Shown: piece after piece, positions 26,788 through 37,360 of the stretch | Position numbering within the stretch: the stretch's first letter is position 1 | Layout of the letters: every line of letters starts with the position of its first letter | Assembly: GCF_016743215.1 (NCBI RefSeq) | Contig: NZ_VRZC01000006.1 | Location: 1-50,929 of the forward strand | From: Geminocystis sp. GBBB08 | GTDB taxonomy: Bacteria; Cyanobacteriota; Cyanobacteriia; Cyanobacteriales; Cyanobacteriaceae | DNA: 50,929 bases | Direction of reading: 5' to 3' | Program-made: the position numbers and the translations under genes | Notes under the pieces: model-generated | The model's database searches: none | Told to the model about the DNA's origin: nothing | The model's input: the letters and a program-made list of their open reading frames with translations, nothing else

Positions 26788-27603
26788 TTAACCAAATCTA
26801 CCACTAACATAATCTTTTGTGGATTGTTCTTCAGGATTACTAAAGATTTTTTCAGTTTGATCAAATTCAACCAAATAACCGACTTTATTACCTTTATTAC
26901 CCACTGCTTCGGCGTTAAAAAAGGCAGTCATATCCGCAACTCTAGTGGCTTGTTGCATATTATGAGTAACAATAACAATGGTATAATTTTCCTTAAGTTC
27001 TTGCATTAATTCTTCTATCTTTAAAGTAGAAATAGGATCAAGAGCAGAACAAGGTTCATCCATTAAGACTACTTCTGGTTGGGCAGCAACAGTACGAGCA
27101 ATACATAATCGTTGTTGTTGTCCCCCAGATAACGAAAAACCGCTTTCCCCTAATTTATCTTTAACTTCATCCCATAAAGCGGCACGGCGTAAAGAAGTTT
27201 CCACTAACTCGTCTAAATCACCTTTATAGCCATTAACTCTGGCACCATAGGCAACATTATCATAAATAGTTTTTGGGAAAGGATTAGGTCTTTGAAACAC
27301 CATACCTATACGTTTTCTTACTTCAACAGGATCAATATCTTTAGCGTATAAATCCTGTCCGTGATAGGTAACTCTACCTTTGAGTTTAAAAGAACTAATT
27401 AAGTCATTTAAGCGGTTTAAACACCTTAAAATTGTACTTTTCCCACATCCAGAAGGTCCAATAAAAGCAGTAATTTTGTTTTTAGGAATGTTGAGATTTA
27501 CTTCTTTAACGGCTTTATAAGTACCATAAAATATATCGACATCCATTAATTCTATTACTGATTGCCTTAACAATTCTTCATCATTCCTTAGTGACTCTTG
27601 CAT
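26788..27603 (-). CDS. pstB: Phosphate ABC transporter ATP-binding protein PstB
   Basis: 271 residues. Walker [11 protein letters not shown]-loop [16 protein letters not shown] (PstB-type), signature [13 protein letters not shown], Walker [14 protein letters not shown] and the switch VTHNM. PstB-specific features include '[21 protein letters not shown]' and the YVSGRFG end. It powers high-affinity phosphate import through PstC and PstA. It is the last gene of the minus-strand pst cluster, 93 bp after pstA. Confidence 0.95.
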
Positions 27604-27696: not shown

Positions 27697-28581
27697 TTAA
27701 TAAACTTTTCTACGGGTAGCTAAACGAGCTAAAATACTCGTACCTAATACTAATAATACCAAAATCAATGACCCTGCCCAAGCTAATTCTTGTTGGGGTT
27801 TAAAAGGTAAAATCGCAAAGTTATAAACTAATACCGATAACGTAGCGATGGGCTCGGCTAATCCTTGAGGGGAAATATTAGGCCAAAAGTTTGAGAATAA
27901 TGCGGTAAAAATTAAAGGTGCAGTTTCTCCAGCAGCTCTGGCGATCGCCAAAGTAATACCAGTTACGATACCAGGTAAAGCGGCGGGAAGGACGATTTTT
28001 AAAACCGTTTGATAGTTATAAGCACCAACTCCTAGGGCAGCCCAACGAATTTCTTGAGGTACAATTTTTAAAGCCTCATCGGTGGTACGAATAATAGTCG
28101 GTAACATCAATACCGCTAAAGCAACACCTCCAGCGATGGCAGAAAATCCAACAATACCACTAGATACTAATAAACCGAAAGCAAAAATCCCTGCAATAAT
28201 AGAGGGAACACCGCTAAGGACGTTAGTAGCGAACCGAATACTGGTGGCAAACTTATTGCCGTGACTAAATTCTGAGAGATAAACGGCAGCTAAAACTCCT
28301 ACAGGTACCGCAATTACTACTGCTATTCCAACCACGACAAGAGTACCGATAATAGCATTGGCTAAACCCCCTTCATCTAAACCAGGAGGAGGCGGTAATT
28401 GGGTAAATAAATCAGTATCAAGGCGACTAAAACCTTGTACAAAGACAAAGAAAAGTACTGCTATTAAAGGGATTAAAGTTAAGATCATACATAAACCACT
28501 TAATCCCGTCATCACCGTTCCTAGTATAACTCTAGGACTGGAGGAATTCTTTTTTAAACTGCCGATCGTAGTAGTAATCAT
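27697..28581 (-). CDS. pstA: Phosphate ABC transporter permease PstA
   Basis: 294 residues with six membrane helices. The EAA-type cytoplasmic loop is AALGVGAYNYQTVLKIVLPAA followed by LPGIVTG. Periplasmic N-terminal part LDTDLFTQLPPPPG and the DEGGLANAIIGTLVVVG segment are PstA-like. It pairs with PstC to form the membrane channel for phosphate. It lies 57 bp downstream of the first pstC copy. Assignment is firm. Confidence 0.93.
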   Translation of the reverse strand: MITTTIGSLKKNSSSPRVILGTVMTGLSGLCMILTLIPLIAVLFFVFVQGFSRLDTDLFTQLPPPPGLDEGGLANAIIGTLVVVGIAVVIAVPVGVLAAVYLSEFSHGNKFATSIRFATNVLSGVPSIIAGIFAFGLLVSSGIVGFSAIAGGVALAVLMLPTIIRTTDEALKIVPQEIRWAALGVGAYNYQTVLKIVLPAALPGIVTGITLAIARAAGETAPLIFTALFSNFWPNISPQGLAEPIATLSVLVYNFAILPFKPQQELAWAGSLILVLLVLGTSILARLATRRKVY

Positions 28582-28638: not shown

Positions 28639-29601
28639 TTATTCGTATTTTGCTTTAACTTGATTAACGATATATTCAGCAAGAATATTGACAATTAAAG
28701 TTAAAAGCATTAAAACTAAACCAGCATACATTAAAGCTGAAATTTGTAAACCACTGGCTTCTGCGAATTGGTTGGCAATTAGAGAGGCGATGGTATTAGC
28801 AGGATCTAGTATAGAAATACTTAAACGGTTTGAGTTACCAATAATCATAGTTGCAGCCATAGTTTCACCCATAGCACGACCTAAAGCTAACATGACACCG
28901 CCCATAATACCGGAAATAGCAGCGGGAATTAAAACTCGAAAAATGGTTTCCCAACGAGTTGCCCCTAATCCTAAAGAGGCTTGACGTAAATCAGGGGGTA
29001 AAGAAGCTAAAGAATCACGAGAAATGGCAATAATAATCGGTAAAATCATGATGGATAAAACTATCCCTGCCGGTAACATACCCGGTCCTGCTGGCGGACT
29101 ACTAAACAGAGGAAACCAACCAAAATTCTGATTTAACCAAGTACCAAAGACAGTAGTAATTGGAATTAAAACAAAAATACCCCAAAGTCCATAAACTACG
29201 CTAGGAATTGCCGCTAATAATTCTACTAAAAAAACTAAAACTGTGCGGATTTGTTCAGGAATAAAATCTTCACTCAAAAAAACCGCAGCACCTACTCCTA
29301 AAGGAATGGCAATAATAAGGGAAATTAAAGAACTAACAATTGTACCATAAATTACCGCTATAACACCATATTCATCGGTAACGGGATTCCAATTACTGTT
29401 AGTAAAAAAACTAAAATTAAATTGTTTAATAGCCGGAAAAGCACCAACGGCAATAATAACCGCTATACTAATTAGAATTAAACCGATACTTATGGCAAAA
29501 CCAAGGGTTAACCACCTGAAACCCTGATCGAAAGTCTTTTCTAAAGGAGATCTCTCTCCCATCATTATCTTATCTGTATTAGAATAATCGGATTGTGTCA
29601 T
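28639..29601 (-). CDS. pstC: Phosphate ABC transporter permease PstC (copy adjacent to pstA)
   Basis: 320 residues with six membrane helices. Family features: NWNPVTDEYGVIAVIYGTIV, the motif IPLGVGAAVFLSE, LAAIPSVVYGLWGIFVL, and the EAA loop LGLGATRWETIFRVLIPAA. This copy keeps the conserved Pro and Gly (I-P-L-G, residues 99-102). It is about 85% identical (271 of 320 residues by my alignment) to the second pstC at 29953-30915, showing a recent local duplication. It directly precedes pstA and is the copy most likely to work with it. Confidence 0.94.
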   Translation of the reverse strand: MTQSDYSNTDKIMMGERSPLEKTFDQGFRWLTLGFAISIGLILISIAVIIAVGAFPAIKQFNFSFFTNSNWNPVTDEYGVIAVIYGTIVSSLISLIIAIPLGVGAAVFLSEDFIPEQIRTVLVFLVELLAAIPSVVYGLWGIFVLIPITTVFGTWLNQNFGWFPLFSSPPAGPGMLPAGIVLSIMILPIIIAISRDSLASLPPDLRQASLGLGATRWETIFRVLIPAAISGIMGGVMLALGRAMGETMAATMIIGNSNRLSISILDPANTIASLIANQFAEASGLQISALMYAGLVLMLLTLIVNILAEYIVNQVKAKYE

Positions 29602-29834
29602 TTTTTAGTTATCTTTTTATTAATAAGAACACCACTAAATAATTAATAATTAACCATTAACTTTTGATTTTTTCGTTTTAATCTAATTTTTGTAGTAATT
29701 GTTACCATCTTAACATTAATAATGTTACTACCTGAAGGAAATTCAATCTTAAAATTTAAAAATAGTTAATTTTCAGTTTTCCTTTCTCAGTGTCTTAATT
29801 ACTTTCTATAAATTTAGACCATCAAGGTTAAATT
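29602..29834. other. Spacer between the first pstC and the pstS relic
   Basis: AT-rich, no gene. The segment 29815-29840 is similar to the sequence just beyond the pstS stop codon (31050-31075), so the duplication extends beyond the coding sequence. A GTA-N8-TAC string occurs at 29692-29705 but is weak evidence for NtcA. Confidence 0.5.
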
Positions 29835-29939
29835 CTAGTTAACAGTTATCGTAAAATCTGGACTAATTTTATCGGCTACTTTAGCCACCGTTGTAATTAC
29901 GTTTTGTGGTAAAAGAATGTAACCTATTACTTGATTGTT
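29835..29939 (-). pseudogene. pstS: 3' relic of a second pstS
   Basis: Read on the minus strand this stretch encodes GYILLPQNVITTVAKVADKI then SPDFTITVN and a TAG stop. Over these 29 residues, 21 are identical to the C-terminus of PstS encoded at 31070-32203 (GYVPLPANVVEKVAKVADQI, SPDFTIKVN). Upstream of it the frame meets a TAA after NN, 13 bp from the end of the second pstC. It is a leftover of a duplicated pstS whose body has been deleted. Confidence 0.85.
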
Positions 29940-29952
29940 TTAATCCATTAAT

Positions 29953-30915
29953 TTATTCATATTTGGCTTTAACTTTATGAACGATATATTCTGCGAGAAT
30001 ATTGACAATTAAGGTTAAAATCATCAAAATTAAACCAGCATACATTAATGCTGAAATTTGTAACCCAGTAGCTTCCGAGAATTGGTTAGCCATCAAGGAA
30101 GCAATGGTATTAGCAGGATCTAGTATAGAAATACTTAAACGGTTAGCATTTCCGATAATCATTGTTGCTGCCACCGTTTCACCCATAGCACGACCTAACC
30201 CTAACATAACACTGCCCATAATGCCAGAAATCGCACTAGGAATTAAAACTCGAAAAATAGTTTCCCAACGGGTAGCCCCCAATGCTAAAGATGCTTGACG
30301 TAAATCAGGGGGTAATGAAGCTAAAGAGTCTCGGGAAATGGCAATAATAATTGGTAAAATCATGATAGATAAAAGTATTCCAGCAGGTAACATTCCCGCT
30401 CCGGCCGGTTCACTACTGAACAAAGGAAACCAACCAAAATTACTATGAAGCCAAGTTCCAAAAACATTAGTAATAGGTATTAAGACAAAAATACCCCATA
30501 ATCCGTAAACTACGCTAGGAATTGCCGCTAATAATTCTACTAAAAACACTAAAACTATGCGAATTTGTTCGGGAATAAAGTCTTCACTTAAAAACACCGC
30601 CGCACCTACTACCAAATGCATAGCAATGAGAAGAGCAATTAAGGAAGAGACGATCGTCCCGTAAACTACAGCTATCACTCCATATTCATCGGTAACAGGA
30701 TTCCAATTACTATTAGTAAAAAAGCCAAAATTAAATTCTCTAATACCAGGAAAAGCGGCAACGATAACAATAAGTGCTATGTTAATTAAAATTAGACCAA
30801 TGCTAAGAGCAAAGGCAAAGGTAAACCATTTAAAACCATTATCTAAAATTTTTTCTAAAGGAGATCTTTCTCCCATCTTTAGATTATCTGTATTAGAAAA
30901 ATAGGACTGTGCCAT
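29953..30915 (-). CDS. pstC: Phosphate ABC transporter permease PstC, second copy adjacent to pstS
   Basis: 320 residues, same length as the first pstC and about 85% identical. The EAA loop LALGATRWETIFRVLIPSA is intact, but the conserved I-P-L-G before VGAAVFLSE has become M-H-L-V here (Pro100 to His, Gly102 to Val). The frame is complete and start and stop match, so it may still be made. Whether it pairs with PstA or is a decaying copy is unclear. It lies between pstS (155 bp upstream) and the pstS relic downstream. Identification as PstC is firm; functionality is open. Confidence 0.9.
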   Translation of the reverse strand: MAQSYFSNTDNLKMGERSPLEKILDNGFKWFTFAFALSIGLILINIALIVIVAAFPGIREFNFGFFTNSNWNPVTDEYGVIAVVYGTIVSSLIALLIAMHLVVGAAVFLSEDFIPEQIRIVLVFLVELLAAIPSVVYGLWGIFVLIPITNVFGTWLHSNFGWFPLFSSEPAGAGMLPAGILLSIMILPIIIAISRDSLASLPPDLRQASLALGATRWETIFRVLIPSAISGIMGSVMLGLGRAMGETVAATMIIGNANRLSISILDPANTIASLMANQFSEATGLQISALMYAGLILMILTLIVNILAEYIVHKVKAKYE

Positions 30916-31069
30916 TTTACTTAGTTATACTTTATTGAGTATCAAAAGAATTTTAAAAGCTATTATTGTTGTTTGTTTATTAGATGTAGTTTATCCTTTA
31001 ATCCTCAGGAGGAAAAATCTATTTAATCTTTTATATTTTGGAACTAGCCTAGACTATGATAGTTAAATT

Positions 31070-32203
31070 TTAGTTAACCTTGATGGTGAAATCTGGACTA
31101 ATTTGATCAGCTACTTTTGCTACTTTTTCGACAACATTGGCTGGTAAAGGTACATAACCCAATGCTGGAGCGACTTTTTGACCTTCTGTTAAAGCATATT
31201 GAATCATCGCTTCCATGGCGATCGCTTTATGGGGATCATCGTATTTAGGAAAAGCTAAAATCCAGCTATAGGTAACAATCGGATAAGATTTTTCTCCTTC
31301 AGGATCGGTAATAAAAGCGCGTAAATTTTCCGGTAACTCTACGTTAGCTAAAGTTTCTGAAGCCGCCTCATCGGTAGGAGGAATAAATTGACCGGCTTTA
31401 TTTTGAATGGCAGCCATAGTTAATTTATTATTTTTAGCATAACCATATTCGACATAGCCAATAGCTCCCTGATTTTGCATAATGGTAGCCGTGACCCCCT
31501 CATTACCTTTGCCACCAAGGAATTTTCCTCCATCTGGTCCCCATTGAACAGTTTTACCCTCTCCTACTTTCTTTTTCCAATCTTCACTAATAGAGGCTAA
31601 ATGTTTGGTAAATACCCCAGTTGTGCCACTACCATCGGAACGATGTACAAAAGTGATGGGTTTATCGGGTAAAGTTAAATCAGGTTTATCAGCCACAATT
31701 TTAGGATCATTCCACTTAGTTATTTTTCCTAAAGCAATCTCGACATAGGTTTCTCTACTTAACTTTAAACCTTCCACCCCGGGTAAATTATAAGCAAAAA
31801 CGATGGAACCGGCGGTAACAGGTAACATTAAAAAACCCTTACTAACTTTTGCTATTTCATCATCTTTCATGGCAGTGTCACTAGCACCAAAATCGATGGT
31901 ACCGGCAGTAAATTGTTCAACTCCTGCACCACTACCCACAGACTGATAATTTACCTGTAATTTAGGTACTTTTTGGTTTAGTGCTACAAACCAATTTTGA
32001 TATAAAGGGGCCGGAAAACTAGCACCAGCACCCGTTAAACTAACGGTATTTTCAAAAGGAACATTCAAACTACTGGTTTCTCCTCCTTCAGGAGTTTTTT
32101 CGGGAGTGGTAGTTGTCCCACCACCGCCTCCACAAGCCGTTAAACTTAAGGCAAAAGTTAGTATTGATAAAGATCTAATTAATCTATTGTTTCTTTTAAA
32201 CAC
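31070..32203 (-). CDS. pstS: Phosphate-binding lipoprotein PstS
   Basis: 377 residues. Lipoprotein signal ALSLTACGGGG (Cys at 24). Phosphate-binding motifs: LTGAGASFPAPLYQNWF, SVGSGAGVEQFTAGTIDFGASD and RSDGSGTTGVFTKHL, with GAIGYVEYGYA. It captures phosphate in the periplasm for PstCAB. It is the first gene of the minus-strand cluster, and its upstream region carries a Pho-box pair. Synechocystis-type genomes have similar sets. Confidence 0.95.
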   Translation of the reverse strand: MFKRNNRLIRSLSILTFALSLTACGGGGGTTTTPEKTPEGGETSSLNVPFENTVSLTGAGASFPAPLYQNWFVALNQKVPKLQVNYQSVGSGAGVEQFTAGTIDFGASDTAMKDDEIAKVSKGFLMLPVTAGSIVFAYNLPGVEGLKLSRETYVEIALGKITKWNDPKIVADKPDLTLPDKPITFVHRSDGSGTTGVFTKHLASISEDWKKKVGEGKTVQWGPDGGKFLGGKGNEGVTATIMQNQGAIGYVEYGYAKNNKLTMAAIQNKAGQFIPPTDEAASETLANVELPENLRAFITDPEGEKSYPIVTYSWILAFPKYDDPHKAIAMEAMIQYALTEGQKVAPALGYVPLPANVVEKVAKVADQISPDFTIKVN

Positions 32204-32405: not shown

Positions 32406-32605
32406 GAATTTTCTCTTTAGTTAATCTATAATTTCTTTGCAAAAATATCAATAAAAAAATGACATAGCAGTCTTTCATGGTGGTAAAAATGATCAAATAT
32501 TATTCTTTACAATTATAAAGATTAGAGCTAATTTAATATGACAACTAATTAAGAATTACTATAATGTACATAAAGGTTTTATTAAAAAATATTAACTGGC
32601 GATTT

Positions 32606-33649
32606 ATGATAAATAATCTCTCACTATCTCCTTACAAAATTTTGTTTTCTGCTTTTATTTTATCAGCTATATTATCGGGCTGTAATGGAACAAAATCTGA
32701 ATTATCAGGAAATATAAAAGTAGATGGTTCTAGTACTGTTTATCCTATTACTAACTTAATTGTTGAAAAATTTAATGCTTCTAATAAAAACAATATTGAA
32801 GTAGAATCAGAATTTTCAGGCTCTGTAGGCGGATTTAAAAAATTTTGTGAAGGCAAAACCGATATTAATAATTCATCTGTACCTATTCCTCAACGTTTTA
32901 TGGATGAATGCAAACAAAACGGTATTGCTTATATCGAATTACCCGTTGCTTTTGATGCCTTAACTGTTGTTATTCACCCTACCAATGATTGGGCAAAAAC
33001 CATCACAGTAGAAGAATTGAAAACCATGTGGCAACCATCGGCAGAACATAAAATCACCCGTTGGAATCAAGTTAATAGTCAATGGGCGGATAAACCCCTT
33101 AATCTATTTGGTCCGGGTGAAGATTCTGGTACATTTGAATACTTTACGAAGGCGATTATCGGCGAAAAAGGTAGTAGAAAAGATTATGTTTATAGTGAAG
33201 ATGATGAAGCATTAGTTAATGGTGTAGCACAAGATCCTAACTCTCTTGGCTATTTTGGTTATGCTTATTATATGGAACACAAAGACAAATTACAAGTCGT
33301 AGCGATCGATAACGGCAAGGGGGGAGTAATACCTTCTGATGCCACAATTATTGATAATTCCTATCGCCCATTAACTCGCCCTTTATTTATTTATGTAAAT
33401 GCTAAAAAAGCCCAAGAAAATGATGATTTAGTCAATTTTGTTGCTTTCTATCTTGAGAATGCGTCTAAAGTAGTTCATGAAGTGGGATATTTACCTTTAC
33501 CAGATTCGGCTTATAAAGTAGCCATGATTCATTTTAATCAAAACCAAGTTGGCACAGTATTTAATGGTGTACCTGTTTTTGATGTTACCATTAACGAATT
33601 ATTAAATAGAAGTTATGCTGCGGAAAATAAAGAAGGCTATGTATTCTAA
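32606..33649 (+). CDS. sphX: Phosphate-binding lipoprotein of the SphX type
   Basis: About 347 residues from ATG 32606 (an ATG at 32564 adds 14). Lipobox ILSGC; then VDGSSTVYPITNLIVEKFN, FSGSVGGFKKFCEGKTDINN and GPGEDSGTFEYF, the phosphate-binding-protein layout but clearly distinct from PstS. SphX is the cyanobacterial paralogue induced by phosphate limitation, often near pst genes. It is divergent from pstS with Pho boxes between. The lower start removes a short extension before the signal peptide (NNLSLSPYKILFSAFIL). The exact SphX name is by context and sequence type. Confidence 0.82.
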   Translation: MINNLSLSPYKILFSAFILSAILSGCNGTKSELSGNIKVDGSSTVYPITNLIVEKFNASNKNNIEVESEFSGSVGGFKKFCEGKTDINNSSVPIPQRFMDECKQNGIAYIELPVAFDALTVVIHPTNDWAKTITVEELKTMWQPSAEHKITRWNQVNSQWADKPLNLFGPGEDSGTFEYFTKAIIGEKGSRKDYVYSEDDEALVNGVAQDPNSLGYFGYAYYMEHKDKLQVVAIDNGKGGVIPSDATIIDNSYRPLTRPLFIYVNAKKAQENDDLVNFVAFYLENASKVVHEVGYLPLPDSAYKVAMIHFNQNQVGTVFNGVPVFDVTINELLNRSYAAENKEGYVF

Positions 33650-34840: not shown

Positions 34841-37360
34841 ATGAAATTAGATCAGTTTTCTCAACATTTTTTACTATCGGGCTTAATGATGGCTTTTATG
34901 GCTACTCCTGCTCAAAGTGAGGAATTGGAAAATAAAGTACTTAGGTTAAGTGATATTGAAGCTATTTCTCAAAAAGCAGAGTTACTTTTAAGTCAAAATC
35001 TAACACAAATTAGGGGCATTAGGGTAGAATCATCGGAAAAAGGATTACAAATTATCCTTGAAACAGATACCCCCACCAGTTTACAGCCATTAATCTACAC
35101 TCAAGAAAATACCCTAGTTATTGACGTTTTAGATGCAGTTTTAACGGAGGAGTTTAGGGTAGAAAACCCCAGTAACAACATCACTGAAATTAGAGCAACG
35201 TCCCTTGATTCGGACGCTATCAGGATTACGGTAACGAGTAAAACGGGAATCCCCACTGCTCAGGTTATCCCCTCTGAAATTAATTTAGTCTTGGGTTTGA
35301 CGGCTGGAGATACAGCAACATCCCAGACACAAATTGAGATTATCGCAACTCAAGAAGCACAACAATCACGAGGATATTTTGTTCCTAATGCTTCAACGGG
35401 AACACGAACTGATACACCTATTATTGAAACTCCTTTTTCTGTGCAAGTTGTACCTCAACAGGTAATTAGATCGCAACAAGCAACCAATATTCAGGAGGTT
35501 TTACAGAATGTTAGTAGTGTGGTTTCTCAAAGTACTTCTCAAGGACGCTCGGCTAACTTCAATATTCGAGGATTTGGTAATCCTTTAGGGACTTCTGTTC
35601 CAGTTTTAAGGGATGGATACAGAGTTTACGGGAGTTTTGATCCCATTCCAGAGGTTGCAAACCTTGAACAAGTTGAAGTGCTTAAAGGACCATCTTCGAT
35701 TTTGTACGGACAAATTCAACCCGGTGGAATGATTAATCTGGTGTCGAAAAAACCTTTAAATGAACCTTTTGCAGAAATAGAACTTCAACTAGGTAATTAT
35801 GGATTAGTACGTCCTCGTTTTGATCTTTCTGGTCCTTTAAGTCGTGATGGTCAATTTTTGTATCGCTTGAATGGGTTGTATAAACATGAATGGAGTTTCT
35901 GAGACTTTGACATAGCAATGGAGAGGTATTCTATCGCTCCCGTTATCGCTTTGAAAATTGATGATCGCACTGATATGGAGTTTTCCGTTGAGTATATCAA
36001 CGATAGAGGACCTGCAGATTTTGGAATTAGTCAATTTGGCAAAGGAGTTGCACCAATTCCTCGATCACGAGTGATTAACGATCCCAATGACACAATCAAC
36101 AAGGATTATGTTAGTGCCGGGTATAGCTTTGAACATCGCTTTAATGATAACTGGAAAGTACGAAACGGTTTTCGTTATCTCAGCTATAACTATAACTACA
36201 GCGTTGTTGCCCTTCCTCTTGCTGTTGATGGTCCTACCGTCACCCGTTTTTATGCGGATCAAGATGGTGAACAGCAATCATATTCCCTAAACACCAGTGT
36301 CGTGGGCAAGTTTGCAACGGGATCAGTTAAACATGAATTATTGACAGGGATTGACCTGAATCACAATGAGGACAGAATTATCTCACTCTTTGGTGGTCCT
36401 TCTTCCATCAACATCTTTAATCCAGATTACAATCTCGCTTCTAAACCTAGTCGTGCTGATTTGTTACCTTTTAATAACACCCTGAATACTTCTAGTCGCT
36501 TAGGTATTTATCTTCAAGATCAAATTTCCTTCTTCGACAACTTAATTTTGGTTGCTGGATTACGTTATGACACCGTGAGTCAAGACACAACGAATGTGCA
36601 AACTGGTTTTGTTGATGGAGGAAGATTGGAACAAAGCAATGATGCTGTGACTCCAAGAATAGGTTTGTTGTATCGCCTAATTCCAGAACTCAGTCTCTTT
36701 GCTAATTATTCTCAATCCTTCGATCCTAGCTCGGCCACAACAGCCAGTGGTAATCCCCTAAAACCTGAACGGGGAGAAGGATTCGAGGTGGGAATCAAAA
36801 CAGAATTATTTGACCAAAAATTACTAGGAACATTGACATATTTTAATATTACCAAGCAGAATGTGGCGGTTACTGATCCTGTCAATCTGCTCTTTTCTTC
36901 TGCCATAGGAGAACAACAAAGCCAAGGGATTGAATTTGATATTGTCGGTGAGATTTTACCCGGTTGGAATATTATCGGTTCTTACTCTTACATAGATGCC
37001 AAAGTAACACAGGATACTGATCCCGATTTTGTTAATAATCGTTTGTTTGGAGTTCCCTATAATATGGCGAGTTTGTGGATGACTTATGAAATTCAATCAG
37101 GAACTTTAGAAGGATTAGGATTTGGCGCCGGTTTTAATTATGTTGGTGATCGTTATGGAGATTTAGCAAACAGCTATACAGTAGGCGACTATATCATTGG
37201 TAACGCAGCTATTTTTTATCGCCGTGACAACTACCGTTTTGCTCTCAACTTTAAAAATATTTCTAATGTTGATTACATTCAATCGGTAACGGGAAATCAG
37301 ACAGGGATTGAGCCAGGACAACCCTTTAGCCTTATTGGCTCATTTTCAGTACAATTTTAA
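34841..37360 (+). pseudogene. TonB-dependent siderophore receptor interrupted by one in-frame TGA
   Basis: The frame of 839 amino-acid codons is intact apart from TGA at 35900-35902 (codon 354). It gives HEWSF-stop-DFDIAMERYSIAP, where related receptors have an Arg or similar (SFRDFD), so a single CGA-to-TGA change would explain it. Parts in order: signal peptide (to about 29), AMIN domain (about 50-150), TonB-dependent plug (about 180-300, ETPFSVQVVPQQVI, NFNIRGFG, VLKGPSSILYGQIQPGG) and a 22-strand-type barrel ending in SFSVQF with terminal Phe. It would import ferric siderophores through the outer membrane. The following genes encode its partners. No TonB gene lies in the window. Confidence 0.85.

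Follow-up and report, generated by a model that had tools for sequence, protein, structure and literature searches.

The pst operon of Geminocystis sp. GBBB08 contains two pstC genes and, between them, a short stretch resembling the end of pstS. Which gene left this remnant, and by what steps did the operon acquire its second pstC? We addressed these questions in a stretch of 50,929 nucleotides that carries the operon (hereafter the window) and in related genomes. PstC and PstA form the channel of the transporter, PstB is its ATPase and PstS its binding protein. All five complete genes of the operon (PstS, PstC, PstC, PstA and PstB) passed their NCBIfam cut-offs, and both PstC copies exceeded the curated TIGR02138 cut-off of 196.45 bits, pstC_dn with 315.2 bits and pstC_up with 295.8 bits. 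The features are listed below; G001 to G004 are related genomes of the same genus.

31070 to 32203, minus strand: pstS, S1 type (TIGR00975, E 1.6e-111)
30916 to 31069, minus strand: shortened spacer from pstS to pstC_up (by blastn to the relatives' spacers)
29953 to 30915, minus strand: pstC_up, the upstream pstC copy, intact and accelerated (TIGR02138, 295.8 bits)
29927 to 29952, minus strand: 26 nt from the pstC_up stop to the relic, a deletion or duplication junction
29835 to 29926, minus strand: pstS2 relic, last 29 codons and stop (26/29 to G004 PstS2)
29602 to 29834, minus strand: ancestral pstS2-pstC spacer, retained beside the relic (single blastn block with the relic)
28639 to 29601, minus strand: pstC_dn, the downstream pstC copy, conserved orthologue (92-94% amino-acid identity to G001, G002 and G004)
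27697 to 28581, minus strand: pstA, single copy (TIGR00974, E 2.4e-88)
26788 to 27603, minus strand: pstB, single copy in the operon (TIGR00972, 392 bits, cut-off 343)

The remnant between the pstC genes

The initial annotation had described similarity between this region and the 3′ end of pstS, and at the nucleotide level it takes the form of a direct repeat in which 29815-29934 matches 31050-31169 over 120 nt at 73% identity (blastn E 1.5e-14 for the best part). The likeness proposed to extend past the stop codon (29815-29840 against 31050-31075) is real as well. The pstS-like frame of the relic comprises 29 codons and a stop (29924-29835) and encodes GYILLPQNVITTVAKVADKISPDFTITVN. Its end had been correctly placed at 29835, but the proposed start at 29939 lies about 13 nt too far, as pstS homology begins at 29926. 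The peptide agrees with the PstS of the window at 21 of 29 residues, as first counted, and with PstS2 of G004 at 26 of 29.

Used as a query, G004 PstS2 matches the relic at 87% amino-acid identity (E 9.7e-9), and the relic is the sole remnant of that gene in the genome. Together with the adjoining spacer, the relic forms one blastn block with G002 (329 nt, 74%, E 6.5e-51), with G001 (309 nt) and likewise with G004; in these relatives the block runs collinearly from the 3′ end of pstS2 through the spacer into the first part of pstC. The relic has S2-type bases at the sites by which S1 and S2 can be told apart. Judged by sequence, it is the 3′ end of pstS2, a distinct and older paralogue occupying the pstS2 position before pstC. 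The diagnostic sites rule out a copy of the neighbouring pstS, and so correct a natural but wrong reading in which a gene relic is taken for a copy of its neighbour.

As a functional PstS the relic does not qualify: its 29 codons include neither a signal peptide nor a complete domain, and no ATG, GTG or TTG precedes an internal GTG in its open frame, so that no functional binding protein is expected from it. Measured from a majority-sequence ancestor set by hand, its branch carries 4 replacing changes and 6 silent ones, whereas under neutrality 74% would be replacing (P 0.023); this would place the truncation late, after much of the branch. With that hand-set ancestor, the ratio suggests that the pstS2 in question stayed whole for much of its time before it was cut.

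The 26 nt after pstC_up had appeared by eye to resemble the 3′ flank of the G002 pstC, but the match was no better than shuffles (0.33), and the similarity of this junction to any pstC 3′ flank never rose above shuffles. By eye, loci L038-L041 of the relatives have a possible short hairpin (TAACCT...AGGTTA) after the pstS or pstS2 stop, part of which is missing from both copies in the window (29810-29834 and 31045-31069).

Relatives and the surviving pstS

G002 (Cyanobacteria bacterium CG_2015-22_32_23; loci L039 and L048) and G004 (locus L041) share the gene order pstS1-pstS2-pstC-pstA-pstB. The order is pstS1-decayed pstS2-pstC-pstA-pstB in G001, where the decayed pstS2 lies in pieces between pstS1 and pstC (L038, 5547-5991), and pstS1-pstC-pstA-pstB in G003. 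The G002 and G004 loci resemble the window in gene order, in the flank upstream of pstS1, and in the divergent PstS-family gene, the pstS2-pstC spacer, pstA and pstB; unlike the window, they have one pstC and a full pstS2. Syntenic relatives with two full pstS copies, to which the initial annotation had looked, thus exist, but with a single pstC only. It follows that the pair of pstS genes is ancestral to the genus and that nothing but the additional pstC is particular to this genome. Most simply, the order in the ancestor of the genus would have been pstS1-pstS2-pstC-pstA-pstB. In G001, G003 and the window, three of the five genomes of the genus, pstS2 has been lost or broken, a repeated loss of a tandem binding-protein paralogue by different routes.

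The surviving pstS bears a trace of the missing gene. Across 84 diagnostic sites it is S1-type along the gene and mostly S2-type in the last ~40 nt, and S2-type sequence continues for ~30 nt past its stop. These sites make its 3′ end an S1::S2 chimera, the apparent mark of S1 x S2 recombination. The G003 pstS switches similarly from S1 to S2 near its stop, and G003 lost its pstS2 by a similar path. Had pstS1 and pstS2 recombined at their similar 3′ ends, a switch of this kind and a missing pstS2 would be expected. Upstream of the switch point in the window's pstS, the relic has S2-type bases, which indicates that it came from S2 rather than from the chimera. The spacer at 30916-31069 is likewise composite: its first ~25 nt resemble DNA found after pstS2 (88% over 25 nt to G003), and its last ~50-70 nt resemble the pre-pstC spacer of the relatives (blastn identities of 83% with G002 over 47 nt and 74% with G001 over 72 nt).

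The two pstC genes

The two PstC proteins (30915-29953 and 29601-28639, minus strand; 320 residues each) are identical at 271 positions (84.7%), in keeping with the roughly 85% first reported, and the genes at 83.9% of nucleotides. Their dS of 0.645 is close to that between species (0.59-0.73 to G002). The two therefore parted long ago, and the extra pstC is an old duplicate unless it was acquired from a sister species. For pstC_dn, pstA and pstS, dS to G002 is 0.66-0.73, and for pstC_up it is 0.59.

The copies have evolved at unequal rates. There are 23 private residue changes in pstC_up (P100H, G102V and M248V among them) against 1 in pstC_dn, and 36 unique changes against 10 with G001 as outgroup (p 1.6e-4); a relative-rate test gave p 2.5e-5 to 0.005, depending on the outgroup. 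Private silent and replacing changes stand at 10:25 in pstC_up and 9:3 in pstC_dn (p 0.007). At 54 positions conserved in ≥95% of 75 other aligned PstC proteins, pstC_dn breaks none and pstC_up two (G102V and M248V), where the other proteins have a median of 0 breaks and some have 4-7. By sequence, pstC_dn is the copy that retains the ancestral state, and pstC_up is accelerated. The excess of private amino-acid changes indicates that pstC_up is probably redundant and under relaxed selection with its frame still open; it keeps a full reading frame with a PstC domain, which aligns to the solved PstC 9k3s (E 1.7e-58). The duplicated permease gene has thus had an asymmetric fate, the copy adjacent to pstA staying ancestral while the other drifts.

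On the simplest view, PstC_dn would be the working, ordinary permease partner of the single PstA and PstB, and PstC_up a redundant, still translatable protein that may be drifting or slowly specialising. A search of the genome gave no second Pst permease set. The two further permease pairs that were checked proved to be sulfate CysT/CysW; the weak matches of C110, considered as a second pst permease set, were identified as CysT/CysW, and the matches of C279 and C267 are weaker still. Further PstS proteins are encoded twice elsewhere in the genome (C290 and C21) and once, in divergent form, beside the operon (32564-33649). An alternative PstC-PstA pairing serving one of these three would give PstC_up a distinct role, and one operon would then make two phosphate transporters of different behaviour; we regard this as improbable. 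Apart from the relic, PstS proteins of this genome reach 73, 55 and 46% identity to G004 PstS2, and two that were considered as an intact pstS2 elsewhere were rejected at only 55% and 46% identity. The divergent gene at 32564-33649 lies on the plus strand and points away from the pst operon; its product (TIGR02136, 266 bits) is 72-77% conserved across the genus.

History of the locus

We favor, with a probability of about 0.6, a history in which pstS2-pstC was duplicated, the first pstS2 was lost by fusion into pstS1 and the second was deleted from its 5′ side. In the first step, tandem duplication of pstS2-pstC would have produced S1-S2a-Ca-S2b-Cb-A-B. Recombination between S1 and S2a at their similar 3′ ends would then have removed S2a, leaving two pstS-pstC units in the order S1-Ca-S2b-Cb-A-B, and a later deletion that began directly behind Ca and reached the final 29 codons of S2b would have created the relic. 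This history is supported by the synteny of G001-G004, by the collinearity of relic and spacer with S2, spacer and pstC, by the closer match of the relic to S2 (26/29) than to S1 (21/29) and its S2-type diagnostic sites, and by the conservation of pstC_dn, the acceleration of pstC_up and the age of the two copies. Against it, three events are required, the 26 nt of the junction are not accounted for, and the trees join pstC_up to G002 and not to pstC_dn (bootstrap 86-97, RELL 0.85-0.91), though an AU test of duplication within the lineage gave p 0.06-0.20 and did not reach rejection. The intermediate S1-C-S2-C-A-B was seen in none of the genomes examined. Duplication followed by loss, as originally proposed, is supported as to a stage with two pstS-pstC units and the later loss of one pstS body; the relic did not derive from the neighbouring pstS, and the proposal has no place for the chimeric 3′ end of the surviving gene. 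Gene duplication and decay of an ordinary sort shaped the locus, which shows operon remodelling clearly on a small scale and in steps that are unusually easy to read.

The grouping of pstC_up with G002 is what introgression would predict. A fragment carrying the S2 3′ end, spacer and pstC of a sister species near G002, taken up by natural transformation, would have recombined with the resident S1 through its own pstS 3′ end and formed an illegitimate junction within the S2 already present. This single event would yield the chimeric pstS end, the extra pstC, the truncated S2 and all junctions; the lowest dS of pstC_up is to G002, and a conserved relic fits a recent truncation. We nonetheless consider introgression unlikely, if still a serious contender. 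Besides the AU result, the last 180 nt of pstC favor pstC_up and pstC_dn as sisters, and the informative sites form a mosaic (runs test P 0.03), a pattern expected from gene conversion. The single-copy pstA and pstS have a similar dS to G002 (0.66-0.68), so the value of 0.59 for pstC_up is not unusual, and its 25 replacing private changes imply long redundancy.

Two events would suffice if a 1.3-kb unit (S2 3′ end, spacer and pstC) had been doubled once, with a relic that was never a whole gene and an upstream S2 lost separately; the unit spacing of 1314 nt is in keeping with this. The relic's silent-to-replacing ratio, which suggests constraint over much of its branch, and the age of the pstC copies make such a truncated duplication very improbable. 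Less probable still is a tandem duplication of the present pstS-pstC with deletion of one pstS body: it explains two pstC genes, one pstS and an in-register pstS 3′ remnant, but at diagnostic sites where the present pstS has S1-type bases the relic has S2-type ones, relatives have pstS2 at this position, and the relic is followed by the S2-C spacer of the ancestral order. That two strains were joined here in assembly is scarcely credible: the genome is a draft in 325 contigs, but it is 99.9% complete with 0.06% contamination, the rest of the assembly contains neither another close pstC or pstA nor an intact pstS2, and the pstC copies are 15% apart and therefore not a doubled identical repeat. 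The assembly at the pst locus looks sound.

Among five genomes of the genus and 15 of the family, two close pstC genes occur in this genome only, and among the matches listed from 130 genomes of the order there is no other adjacent same-strand pair of close pstC genes. A phrase search for tandem pstC found nothing in the collection of papers searched. A short contig of G024 has the order pstC-pstA-pstS-pstC, the last gene cut, with ~50% identity to the pstC studied here. Synechocystis PCC 6803, which also has cyanobacterial Pst phosphate ABC transporters, carries two whole operons, Pst1 and Pst2, studied as such (PMC3199254), whereas the window has one operon in which only pstC is doubled. Several Cyanobacteriales have tandem pstB pairs (pstS-pstC-pstA-pstB-pstB; for example L049, L050, L051, L052, L055 and L080), where one component is likewise doubled within the operon, but it is pstB rather than pstC. 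A PstC 55% identical to this one, with its match spread over 1365 nt, lies on a contig of a MAG named Tatlockia (L095), possibly through mis-binning or as a broken gene. Elsewhere in the window, an apparently single TonB-dependent receptor gene (34841-37360, plus strand) is split into ORFs 34841-35902 and 35918-37360; in the ORF list, from which this was read, the split points to a sequencing error or to a frameshift around 35900.
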